Below are positions 3,884 to 60,407 of a stretch of 64,000 nt of DNA, piece by piece. The position numbers and the translations under genes were made by a program. Source of the stretch: an uncultured bacterium. GTDB taxonomy: Bacteria > Hydrogenedentota > Hydrogenedentia > Hydrogenedentales > CAILVY01. Location: NCBI GenBank assembly GCA_937951485.1, contig CALEDJ010000016.1, positions 124,001 to 188,000 on the forward strand, given 5' to 3'. Below the pieces are notes generated by a model. That model was given only the letters and a program-made list of their open reading frames with translations. It was not told the DNA's origin and ran no database searches. Position 1 is the stretch's first letter; the number at the start of each line of letters is the position of its first letter.

Positions 3884-3945
3884 CAGTTTGCGCGTCTTGT
3901 GATTCAGGGCATTCCATCTGACTGAAGCAATCACTGCGCATAGCC

Positions 3946-3978
3946 CCGTCATTGCGAGTCCCCCACCGTCTCCGGCGA
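3946..3978 (+). repeat. Dispersed repeat R2 (CATTGCGAGTC), copy 1
   Basis: The sequence CCGTCATTGCGAGTCCCCCA followed by a CCG..CGGCGA segment recurs with few changes at 28943-28978 and, inverted, at 29316-29351. It is intergenic in all three places. Confidence 0.7.
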
Positions 3979-4094
3979 CCATTCGCGGAAGAAAGAGGAT
4001 GTACTTTCGCGACATTTCCGGACAAATGAACTCGGTACCCAGCAGGAGTTCCCGTTGTGTAGTGTTTGCGGTGACCTTGGGCGACGACCGCAAG

Positions 4095-4109
4095 CACCCC
4101 GGAGGGGTG
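4095..4109. repeat. Hairpin with GGA loop
   Basis: CACCCC and GGGGTG form a perfect 6-bp stem around GGA. It belongs by shape, not by stem sequence, to the set of GGA-loop hairpins also seen near 15.1, 19.5, 38.8 and 50.8 kb. Confidence 0.5.
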
Positions 4110-9324: not shown

Positions 9325-9347
9325 AAAAAGTCGCAGGCCGAAGCCTG
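9325..9347 (-). terminator. Rho-independent terminator of the flagellin gene
   Basis: On the minus strand CAGGC-TTCG-GCCTG forms a UUCG-capped hairpin followed by CGACTTTTTC. It lies just past the flagellin stop codon at 9376. The hairpin is also the core of an R1 repeat, so one member of that family appears to serve as a terminator. Confidence 0.65.
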
Positions 9348-9361
9348 TACTCCAGAACTCC
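9334..9361 (+). repeat. Dispersed repeat R1, copy 2
   Basis: CAGGCCGAAGCCTG followed by TACTCCAGAACTCC, matching the other R1 copies except at the hairpin centre. Confidence 0.7.
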
Positions 9362-15036: not shown

Positions 15037-15131
15037 GGCCCTTGCAAAACCTCCCGTGTCATGCGCGTCTCGCCCATGACACGGGCAGGATGCCCGTGCT
15101 GCATTGGATAACAGAAGGTTTTGCAAGAGCC
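15037..15131. mobile_element. Small nested inverted-repeat (MITE-like) element
   Basis: The ends are 16-base inverted repeats with one mismatch (core CTTGCAAAACCT at 15041 and its complement at 15116). Inside are CCCGTGTCATG at 15053 with its complement at 15075, and a CACGGGCA-GGA-TGCCCGTG hairpin at 15080-15098. The 95-base span has no coding capacity. Terminal inverted repeats and internal hairpins suggest a miniature element, but no target-site duplication is certain. Confidence 0.5.
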
Positions 15132-19112: not shown

Positions 19113-19463
19113 TTCTCAGCGGCAAGCGCGCCAAACATGACTCCTGACATGTCCGCCGTGTTTGGTGGAAGTTGGGCCCTGCGGTTCACACAGTGGCTGA
19201 TTTGGAGTGCGCCGCCTGTTCGGCACACTCCATAACGGCGCAAATCCTTACGGGTTCATGTTCATTTGATATGATGAGAGGCATTTGCGAAATGGACTCT
19301 TTTGGCGCGTTAGAGCACGAAATATCAGGGATTTCAGATGGCACTGAGAACCGGAACGCCCGTTTCGCAAATGTCTCGATGAGTACGTCTATCTTGAAAC
19401 CGTAAATCGTCTTGAGATGCGCCGGGGAATGAAATTTTTCCGTGAAACGCGCTGCCGCATCCC

Positions 19464-19513
19464 GCGACGCGGGAGCGTCGCAGGGGTGCGTTACACCGCA
19501 GGAGCGGTGTAAC
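19464..19513. repeat. Two adjacent GGA-type hairpins
   Basis: The first has 7-bp arms (GCGACGC) around GGGA at 19464-19481. The second has 10-bp arms (GTTACACCGC) around AGGA at 19490-19513. Both stems are perfect yet share no sequence, while the loops are nearly the same. Confidence 0.65.
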
Positions 19514-19523
19514 GAGGGGAAAT

Positions 19524-19547
19524 GTTGCACCAAAGGTTGCACCAAAG
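19524..19547. repeat. Tandem 12-mer
   Basis: GTTGCACCAAAG occurs twice with no gap between the tRNA-Lys gene and the hairpins. Confidence 0.6.
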
Positions 19548-19647: not shown

Positions 19648-19723
19648 TGGTGAACGGGGCGGGATTCGAACCCGCGGCCACCGGATTAAAAGTCCGATGC
19701 TCTACCGACTGAGCTACCCGTCC
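19648..19723 (-). tRNA. tRNA-Lys (anticodon TTT)
   Basis: A 76-base cloverleaf on the minus strand. The acceptor stem pairs GGACGGG with CCCGTTC (one G-U), the D arm is GCTCAGTCGGTAGAGC, the anticodon loop is CTTTTAA in a 5-bp stem, and the T arm contains GGTTCGAATCC. CCA is encoded. It lies downstream of rnpB on the same strand, with a candidate promoter of its own at 19775. Confidence 0.97.
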
Positions 19724-23516: not shown

Positions 23517-23641
23517 CGCATTGAAGGAAAAGACTGCGCCGGAATCCGCCTCCGGTGAGCACAGAGGCTTTTGAGGAAGTTGTCTGTAATTGGAAGGGTG
23601 ATTTGTGCCCCCCTTTGCATAGGAGTGCATATGAGAATTTC

Positions 23642-23690
23642 TGGAGACCTTCGGTCGTGGGCGTGGCACGGTCGGGCGACCGGCCACAAC
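23642..23690 (-). repeat. Dispersed repeat R3
   Basis: On the minus strand it starts GTTGTGGCCGGTCGCC, closes with a GTGCCAC arm and ends GACCGAAGGTCTCCA. It interrupts the glycan operon between the aminotransferase and the 6-dehydrogenase. Confidence 0.7.
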
Positions 23691-23769
23691 AAAAAAAGCG
23701 CAAGCGCGGCTTGGGTCCCCCAAAGGGCGGGGCGCGAAGCGCCGTGGGCTGTGAATGAGGAATAGGACA

Positions 23770-28881: not shown

Positions 28882-28942
28882 ATTGGCAACACTTCAGCCG
28901 AATGGCGTGAAATCATGAGGCCATGTACGATCATTCCTCTCC

Positions 28943-28978
28943 CTGTCATTGCGAGTCTCCCACCGCCTTCAGCGGCGA
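28943..28978 (+). repeat. Dispersed repeat R2, copy 2
   Basis: CTGTCATTGCGAGTCTCCCA followed by CCGCC..AGCGGCGATG, nearly the same as the copy at 3946. Confidence 0.7.
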
Positions 28979-29315
28979 TGCACAGAGAAAAGGGGCTGAT
29001 TTTGTCTGCAGCAGAAGAGTACTGTCATTTCGAACGGAGCGGGAAATCTTCACCACAGCCCAGGATTTCTCGGTCGCCTGTGCTCTCTCAAAATGACAAA
29101 AGAAAGGGAAATCTGTAGTTTCACAGGTCCTCGATCGGCCACTTTCTCAGCAGCGGTGCGGCGCACCAGGCCGCCGAGAGAAGCAATCTGCAATAATAGT
29201 GGCCTCATAATGTCTGAGATTGCTTCGCTTCGCTCGCAATGACGGGAATTCAGAGTTGACGGATAAATTCAAATTGTTGTATTGCTGGGAAAGCGCGTTT
29301 CCTTTCTTCTTTGAA

Positions 29316-38763: not shown

Positions 38764-39032
38764 TTGTGGCCTCTGTTGTGGCCGGTCTCCTTGTTCCCTG
38801 TTGTGGCCGGTCTCCTGACCGCGCCACAAGACCGACCGAAGGTCTTCCCTGTTGTGGCCGGTCTCCTGACCGCGCCACAAGACCGACCGAAGGTCTCCCA
38901 AACGCTTTCCCTGTTGTGGCCGGTCTCCTGACCGCGCCACAAGACCGACCGAAGGTCTCCCAAACGCTATCATCACATATTTGGAGACCTTCGGTCTATT
39001 GTGTGGCGCGGGCGGCAGACCTGCCGCAACAG
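38764..39032. repeat. Array of dispersed repeat R3
   Basis: Three direct copies begin CCCTGTTGTGGCCGGTC at 38796, 38847 and 38909, with shorter fragments before them and a degenerate inverted copy at 38980-39032. Each unit pairs TTGTGGC with GCCACAA around a CGGTC-TCCT-GACCG hairpin, and ends GACCGACCGAAGGTC. Copy spacing is 51 and then 62 bases, so it is not a regular CRISPR-like array. It lies between the acyltransferase and argH genes. Confidence 0.75.
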
Positions 39033-50694: not shown

Positions 50695-50782
50695 TTTCGG
50701 GAACCTCCCAAAGCAGGGGCACACAAAGCGGGATCGAGCGGCAGCGTGGCTGTGAAACAGCGCAGGCGCACCGGCATTTTTG

Positions 50783-50807
50783 CAGGCTGACGCCTGTACT
50801 CCAGAAC
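50783..50807 (+). repeat. Dispersed repeat R1, copy 3
   Basis: CAGGCTGACGCCTG followed by TACTCCAGAAC. Confidence 0.7.
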
Positions 50808-50812
50808 TATCC

Positions 50813-50860
50813 GTTGTGGCCGGCCTCCCGACCGAGCCACAGCAACGACCGAAGGTCTCC
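50813..50860 (+). repeat. Dispersed repeat R3
   Basis: GTTGTGGCCGGCCTCCC hairpin with a GCCAC closing arm, then ACGACCGAAGGTCTCC. It sits between two R1 copies. Confidence 0.7.
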
Positions 50861-50871
50861 AACAATCTTGA

Positions 50872-50896
50872 CAGGCTGAAGCCTGATCTCCGGAAC
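50872..50896 (+). repeat. Dispersed repeat R1, copy 4
   Basis: CAGGCTGAAGCCTG followed by ATCTCCGGAAC, a diverged copy. Confidence 0.65.
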
Positions 50897-50918
50897 CGTC
50901 TCGCTGAAAAATGAAATC

Positions 50919-56776: not shown

Positions 56777-57308
56777 AATCGTCATGTCGGGTTTCGGCGG
56801 CCAGGGCATCATGTACATGGGCGACCTGCTCGCCCAGGCCGCCGTTGAAGAGGGCCGCAACGCCACCTTTTTTCCCACCTATGGCGCCGCCATGCGCGGC
56901 GGCACCGCCAACTGCATCGTCATCGTTTCCGACTACGAAATCGGGTCCCCCCTGCACCGTCGGCCCGATGCCGCCATCCTGATGAACCAACCTTCCCTGG
57001 AACGTTTCGAGCCGATGATCAAGCAGGGCGGCCTTATGGTCTGCAATGCATCCATGATTGACCGTGCGGCCAGCAAGCGCAACGGCGAACTGCGCACCGT
57101 GTGGATTCCCGTAACGGAAATCTCGCGCACTGTCGCCGGCAACGAGCGATCCGCCAACATCGTCGCGTTCGGCGCATTCCTCAAAGCCGAACCCATCGTC
57201 CGGATCGAAACCATCGAGACCATCTTTCGCCAACTCCCCGCCCAGAAAAAGGCCATGATCGAGAAAAATCTCGCCGCGCTCCGCGCCGGCATGGATTTCG
57301 CCGCTTAG
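56766..57308 (+). CDS. 2-oxoacid:ferredoxin oxidoreductase, gamma subunit
   Basis: A 180-residue gamma subunit with the family start FEIVMSGFGGQGIMYMGDLL, then FFPTYGAAMRGGTANCIVIV and AAILMNQPSLERFEPMIKQGG. It completes a three-subunit enzyme together with the two genes before it. No delta subunit with two 4Fe-4S clusters was found beside it, so electrons must pass to a separate ferredoxin. Downstream are two R1-type repeats. Confidence 0.93.
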   Translation: MHFEIVMSGFGGQGIMYMGDLLAQAAVEEGRNATFFPTYGAAMRGGTANCIVIVSDYEIGSPLHRRPDAAILMNQPSLERFEPMIKQGGLMVCNASMIDRAASKRNGELRTVWIPVTEISRTVAGNERSANIVAFGAFLKAEPIVRIETIETIFRQLPAQKKAMIEKNLAALRAGMDFAA

Positions 57309-57379
57309 CCTGTCATAAATTCCGGAATACACGCTTCAGCCTGTCATAAGTTCCGGAGTACACGCTTCAGCCTGTCACA
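57309..57379 (-). repeat. Tandem 31-bp repeat made of R1 units
   Basis: Two full units of 31 bases (57309-57339 and 57340-57370, three differences) and the beginning of a third. On the minus strand each contains CAGGCTGAAGCGTGT and TCCGGAA, the diverged R1 hairpin and tail. Confidence 0.75.
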
Positions 57380-57503: not shown

Positions 57504-57590
57504 ACAGGACCGCGCCATAAAACGCCCTCTCCCGCCGGGAGAGGGATGGGGTGAGGGAACATTACAAAAACAGGACCGCACCATGAAACG
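57504..57590 (+). repeat. Palindromic element flanked by duplicated gene start
   Basis: A perfect 9-bp stem CCCTCTCCC / GGGAGAGGG around GCC (57525-57545), with a TGGGGTGAGGGAAC tail, lies between two 21-base direct repeats (57504-57524 and 57570-57590; 19 of 21 identical). The second copy contains the ATG of the GH116 gene; the first has ATA at the same place. Confidence 0.65.
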
Positions 57591-60260: not shown

Positions 60261-60407
60261 GGGGTATTGTCAAAATCAATCACCGCATGGCGTCATTTTG
60301 ACATCGTGCCATGATGGTTTCTGACAGGGAAGAAGCATGACGTTGCACAGGGTTCAGGCGGAAAGGATTTTTTCCTTCGTTACACCGCTCCCGCGGCAAC
60401 TCTTCTC

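Follow-up and report, generated by a model that had tools for sequence, protein, structure and literature searches.

Four of the five perfect hairpins with GGA-type loops in the window, the 64,000-nucleotide stretch of DNA analysed here, belong to repeat families that are dispersed through this Hydrogenedentota genome. We read these shared-loop hairpins as REP or REPIN elements, non-autonomous palindromes dispersed by loop-reading RAYTs, with a probability of about 0.88. RAYTs (TnpAREP) are REP-associated tyrosine transposases of the HUH single-strand endonuclease type, and each of them is thought to own one REP family. The sharing of the loop, the differing stems and the position of one family on both sides of a RAYT gene suggest that the TCC loop (GGA on the complementary strand) is probably what a class of RAYTs reads.

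Hairpins of the window

All five hairpins of the preliminary description were found at their places when the sequence was re-read:

4095-4109, strand not applicable: CACCCC-GGA-GGGGTG, perfect stem, loop GGA
15080-15098, minus strand: CACGGGCA, perfect 8-bp stem, loop GGA on the plus strand
19464-19481, minus strand: GCGACGC-TCCC-GCGTCGC on the minus strand, loop GGGA on the plus strand; inner hairpin of family B (B')
19489-19514, minus strand: CGTTACACCGC-TCCT-GCGGTGTAACG on the minus strand, loop AGGA on the plus strand; outer hairpin of family B (A), 11 bp
38803, 38854 and 38916 (starts of the R3 cores), plus strand: CGGTC stem, loop TCCT on the plus strand, that is AGGA on the minus strand

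The hairpin first placed at 19490 has the stem and the AGGA loop attributed to it, with one more base pair (11 bp, 19489-19514). The five had been taken for one hairpin family with a common loop: the sharing of the loop holds, the single family dissolves into several REP families, and the 4095 hairpin drops out. Apart from the hairpin itself, a search for copies of the latter in the genome sample returned a single partial match of 33 bp at 88%, and no tag accompanies it. Being unrepeated and tagless, it is rejected as a member of a REP system.

R3 and its transposase

The R3 family occurs in the window as follows:

38785-38959, plus strand: R3 array of three units, 56 genome matches
38803-38827, plus strand: R3 core GTGGC-C-GGTC-TCCT-GACC-G-C-GCCAC, loop TCCT at 38813-38816
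38854-38878, plus strand: R3 core, second unit
38916-38940, plus strand: R3 core, third unit
38977-39031, minus strand: diverged R3 copy in inverted orientation
23637-23691, minus strand: R3 copy
50798-50859, plus strand: R3 copy with a TCCC loop

The core consensus is GTGGC-C-GGTC-TCCN-GACC-G-N-GCCAC, a stem with a C.C mismatch. Over 66 cores the foot GTGG is near-invariant and the TCC bases are kept in 62-63, while the fourth loop base varies (T26/C19/A14/G7); the search patterns for R3 and for family B held the loop (up to 5 substitutions anywhere), so that these loop values are somewhat inflated. According to an ad hoc gene caller, 40 of 55 R3 hits lie outside genes.

The transposase of this family is encoded in the same genome:

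Contig C42, 6126-6668, minus strand: RAYT, 181 aa, intact, NCBIfam match above cut-off

It is the sole match in the genome to NF047646 (REP_Tyr_transpos), at 95.3 bits against a cut-off of 80 bits, and a phmmer comparison pairs it with E. coli TnpAREP (4er8). The residues H59xH61 (HUH motif), Y139 and N143-P144 (Y---NP motif) are conserved across 23 homologues. The AlphaFold model has a pLDDT of 87.7, and its top fold hit in the PDB is again 4er8 (E 1.7e-7). The gene is present as a single copy, and its flanks are REPs, not IS ends: R3 arrays lie on either side in opposite orientations, with arms of 29-40 bp at 93-97%. At the orthologues in two related genomes (G055 and G042), R3-like hairpins GTGGC..GGTC-TCC[GCT]-GACC..GCCAC are likewise found on both sides. 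The location of a RAYT between inverted R3 arrays, together with the R3-like hairpins at its orthologues, identifies R3 as the REP of a REPtron in this genome. The suggestion that the hairpins are REP-like transposase substrates, which had come with a call to look for a RAYT gene, is thus borne out: one intact gene exists, and homologous RAYTs are flanked by TCC(N)-loop hairpins with differing stems.

A search of the genome with PF01797 (Pfam Y1_Tnp) returned no transposase, nor did a RAYT of the L164 type match anything in it when used as a query. The resulting view of a genome without RAYT was wrong: the C42 gene was recovered with the G055 RAYT as a query (L305, located between R3-like hairpins; 60% identity over 181 aa). 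To note, PF01797 gives no hit on the C42 protein at E up to 10; the Y1_Tnp profile misses RAYTs of this type, and claims of absence made with PF01797 alone are therefore unsafe. The assembly is a 94% complete draft, from which a second RAYT could be absent. R3 is the sole family with its transposase in the genome of the window; for the others, we infer the partners from relatives.

Family B

One copy of the second family lies in the window:

19425-19545, plus strand: family B copy made up of hairpin B', a spacer and hairpin A; blastn gives 48 matches in its own genome, and 42 copies were aligned

The unit comprises a 7-bp hairpin GCG[A/G]CGC with a loop NGGA, a spacer GGTGGTG or similar, the 11-bp hairpin CGTTACACCGC, also with a loop NGGA, and a final AG. 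Other copies possess a second, inverted half upstream, which is degenerate at 19425-19545. Elsewhere in the genome, 15 adjacent hairpin-A pairs face outward, and since 13 of these 15 are spaced by 62-120 bp from start to start, many family B copies are inverted pairs. Hits outside genes number 31 of 40 with the same gene caller.

Subject to the search bias mentioned for R3, the three GGA bases are kept in 72, 72 and 65 of 85 family B hairpins, with a free first loop base (A40/G27/T14/C4); within 30 copies of the inner hairpin, loop positions 2-4 are G, G and A in 30, 28 and 29. The stems change on both sides: 65 both-sided compensatory cells were counted, such as TA to GC or CG at pair 4 and AT to GC at pair 5. 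Pairing reaches 84.7%, as compared to a maximum of 80.4% among 500 shuffles, a comparison that is optimistic as the copies are related. Compensating stem change around a fixed loop, proposed at the outset for the hairpins as a whole, is accordingly a property of family B copies; between families, the stems simply differ.

No GT[AG]G foot was found in the 42-copy alignment, and no RAYT partnered with the family was found in this genome. The layout of the outer hairpin (CT-CGTT..11 bp..AACG-CAC) is that of hairpins located beside a RAYT subclade in relatives (L323-L330, L335).

The window copy adjoins two RNA genes on the minus strand, RNase P RNA (RF00010, 19922-20295) and tRNA-Lys (19648-19723). 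A degenerate family B-like hairpin (GGGAGCGGTGTAACGAAGG) is present at 60378-60403, minus strand.

The 15080 element

The third case is a composite element:

15037-15131: element of about 95 bp with 16-bp terminal inverted repeats (15037-15052 and 15116-15131) around an inverted REP pair (REPIN); 10 genome matches
15080-15098, minus strand: REP hairpin GCAG-CACGGGCA-TCC-TGCCCGTG, 8-bp stem, TCC loop
15060-15078, plus strand: partner REP CATGCGCG-TCT-CGCCCATG, degenerate here

The tag of the first REP, GCAG in the window, is GTAG or GTGG in four copies (L116, L114, L118, L119), and in other copies the partner carries a GTGG tag with the hairpin CATGGGCG-TCT-CGCCCATG. The two inverted REPs of the better copies thus read GTRG-CACGGGCA-TCC-TGCCCGTG and GTGG-CATGGGCG-TCT-CGCCCATG. 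Copies of this class that flank a RAYT were seen in relatives only. The genome of the window also contains GTAG-ACGCGGCA-TCC-TGCCGCGT (L078:9993; with an ATAG tag at L065:2292), identical to the REP beside the RAYT of genome G017 (L271).

Loop counts

A preference for GGA among hairpin loops had been proposed as a check. Loops were counted in a sample of 1.58 Mb from the 4.55 Mb draft, with open frames of 250 codons excluded and 8 dinucleotide shuffles as the control; some of the contigs were picked for carrying R3, so that the sample is non-random, and the counts are of copies of repeat families rather than of independent hairpins. Among triloops on stems of at least 6 bp, GGA/TCC is the commonest (31 versus 2.1 expected), and the tetraloops GGGA (10 versus 0.4), TGGA/TCCA (9 versus 1.0) and AGGA (4 versus 0.1) are enriched as well. 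Roughly two in three GGA triloops stem, however, from one high-copy family with a variable loop, CCCTCTCCC-NNN-GGGAGAGGG; once it is removed, GGA (11) is barely ahead of AGA (10) and GAA (9), while the NGGA tetraloops are still enriched. The first count of GGA, seemingly very strong, was therefore set aside as made up mostly of CCCTCTCCC copies. GGA/TCC is indeed the top triloop and NGGA is enriched, but the triloop excess belongs mostly to a family whose loop is free. As the loop count alone proves little for this reason, the repeat families were examined singly.

The CCCTCTCCC-NNN-GGGAGAGGG hairpin occurs in the window at 57525-57545 and at L001, L006, L011, L092, L098, L101 and other loci, often in tandem with a spacing of about 54 bp. 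Its 3-nt loop is most frequently GGA/TCC, AGA/TCT or AGC/GCT.

RAYT loci in relatives and other phyla

Hairpins with their own stems and a TCC loop lie beside RAYT homologues in Verrucomicrobiota, Kiritimatiellota, Planctomycetota, Pseudomonadota and other Hydrogenedentota. At three sets of RAYT loci, TCC/GGA loops make up 51%, 62% and 40% of the hairpins with stems of at least 7 bp. The controls are at 4% for IS200, 16% for divergent Y1 and 3% for remote loci, and shuffles at 4-6%. On the TCC strand, the stem is preceded at its 5' side by a tag, in most cases GTAG (51) or GTGG (12), and loop and GTRG tag keep a constant orientation to each other. At least two different stems with the same TCC/GGA loop coexist at 14 RAYT loci; stems vary even within one array. 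In a same-family genome (G002), another RAYT lies inside arrays of GTAG-ACGCGACG-TCC[CT]-CGTCGCGT and inverted GTGG-AAGCGGCG-TCCA-CGCCGCTT.

Three changes suffice to place the TCC label on a 53-RAYT tree, versus 8.3 in shuffles. Many loci of the CGTT type carry an ACA/TGY loop, not TCC (L323, L324, L326-L330), and the CGTT-type layout with TCC-type loops is seen at L325 and L335. The TCC loop is conserved across RAYTs and is not universal in the CGTT subclade.

The best PF01797 hits in relatives, considered as candidate REP transposases, were rejected: they are IS200/IS605 TnpA proteins with other loops. Most divergent Y1 loci lack REP-like repeats. At an R3 cluster of genome G012, no RAYT was found among the inspected ORFs, one of which is RHS-like.

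REP copies are also found within reading frames: in the G002 RAYT (L164:1074-1859), where they are translated as 'SRIKSGVDAAST', and in the RHS-like ORF of G012 (L299:3792-4847), as 'VVAGLLTAPPARPKVS' repeats.

Proposed loop recognition and rival explanations

RAYTs act on one strand of a folded hairpin, and recognition has been tested for three RAYT/REP pairs (PMC8266576). Group 3 TnpAREP needs individual bases of the loop, accepts a swap of stem blocks and is impeded by stem mismatches (PMC8266576); the pattern of R3 and family B is therefore the one that these loop and stem rules predict. By extension, a RAYT would bind the strand that is extruded, as may happen on the lagging-strand template, and would identify the folded hairpin chiefly by the loop's TCC bases, helped by the GTAG/GTGG tag at the foot where present. 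Changes in the stem would be tolerated so long as pairing holds. Loop-reading of this kind would account for the constancy of the loop, the freedom of its fourth base and the variation of the stems. Points that weigh against the overall reading are family B, footless and tied to the RAYTs of relatives by hairpin layout only, the ACA/TGY loops of many CGTT-type loci and the C.C mismatch in the R3 stem. The 15080 REPIN and family B are probably either left over from RAYTs since lost or acted on, through the shared loop, by the one RAYT of this genome. A stronger version, in which TCC(N) is the recognition code of at least two RAYT groups and the R3-type RAYT also mobilises family B and the GTRG-type REPs, appears rather doubtful to us.

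The same hairpins could act as RNA. The protein CsrA/RsmA binds GGA in RNA hairpin loops, so that the elements might be its binding sites or decoys: a CsrA gene is present (PF02599, E 5.9e-25), and the 15080 hairpin reads CAGGATG on the plus strand, which we take to be near the CsrB repeat consensus. Yet tandem intergenic copies show no strand preference (9 GGA-sense to 8 TCC-sense for family B, 10 to 8 for R3), the elements are inverted pairs in which both strands occur, and in several phyla the hairpins are concentrated around transposase genes, all of which makes such a role highly improbable. The RNA-binding target first envisaged for the hairpins is hence not favoured, neither strand being preferred relative to transcription. 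Retention as transcription terminators or mRNA 3'-end stabilisers would suit strong intergenic hairpins, one of which lies directly downstream of the tRNA-Lys gene (19648-19723, minus strand). It is nevertheless very unlikely: no T-run follows the stems, neither for the window hairpins nor in the family B alignment, and convergent gaps hold 6 of 28 family B and 7 of 34 R3 copies, no enrichment over the 20% of intergenic length that such gaps represent. The lack of strand preference and of a convergent-gene excess thus makes RNA decoys and terminators poor candidates for the cause of conservation. Secondary roles acquired after insertion, as hypothesised for other REPs, may exist and are compatible with the data.

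Alternatively, the loop might be incidental, shared by unrelated repeat families, possibly MITEs of DDE transposases, through a chance match or because C-GNA-G hairpins are favoured in DNA. The 16-bp terminal inverted repeats of the 15037-15131 element are MITE-like, and other repeated hairpins carry other loops (the CCCTCTCCC family and CAGGC-TGAA-GCCTG). Against this stand the 40-62% of TCC/GGA loops at RAYT loci versus about 4% in controls, the constant mutual orientation of loop and GTRG tag and the fact that R3 flanks the RAYT itself, and we judge an incidental loop to be quite unlikely.

Relation to known systems

REPs, REPINs and RAYTs are already known (PMC3733652, PMC3116915 and PMC6006769) and are not new in themselves; the loop common to RAYT groups is the part worth following.

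By motif alone, the RAYT of this genome would be placed near TnpAREP subclass 2.6 / RAYT group 5 as outlined in PMC6006769: it has about 180 aa, WQ and a YIHxNP-like motif followed by SSAR, and REPs of the CGTT type, which lack a simple GT[AG]G foot, occur around the gene and genome-wide. Conversely, that group is described mainly from Bacteroidetes, with NH[LIV]H and YIH[QN]NP where our protein has THLH and YLHDNP, and strong hairpins with a TCC(N) loop set the present case apart. Hairpins of the GTRG-8 bp-TCC form that accompany RAYTs with NH[IV]H, WQ and YI..NP resemble those of subclass 2.4 / RAYT group 4, as do the REP copies within the RAYT frame (L164) and the spread over many phyla; a conserved loop is not described for this group in the accessible text of PMC6006769, and the GTRG REPs in the genome of the window are without RAYT.

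The group 3 REPtrons of S. maltophilia and Marinomonas (PMC8266576) share the perfect stem of 8 bp or 5 bp and the short loop, the decisive loop bases, the largely exchangeable stem sequence and the harm done by a mismatch. Their loops are GCT and TTTA instead of TCC, and they belong to another RAYT group. Family B and the 15080 element recall the REPINs of P. fluorescens (PMC3116915), in which two inverted REPs move as a unit, but the sequences are different and family B has two hairpins per half.

A full-text literature search, with published figures outside its reach, returned no paper that links Hydrogenedentota with REPs or RAYT; the TCC loops of PVC species may already appear in such figures. 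The present analysis brings REPtrons of Hydrogenedentota into view, along with the hairpins beside RAYTs missed by Pfam. As TCC persists in the loop from one RAYT group or phylum to another and the stems vary, nature has separated loop from stem, and the notion that the loop is the address and the stem only a scaffold becomes directly testable.

Other repeats of the window

Three further dispersed repeats were noted. CAGGC-[TC]GA[AC]-GCCTG hairpins with a TGAA-type loop are found at 9333-9359, 50782-50808 and 50871-50897 (43 blastn hits in the sample of the same genome). Hits in this sample number 14 for the repeat CCCYGTCATTGCGAGTC, which occurs at 3944-4001 and 28941-28998, and 44 (blastn) for AGCCTGTCATAAATTCCGGAATACACGCTTC, which forms a tandem pair at 57307-57368.
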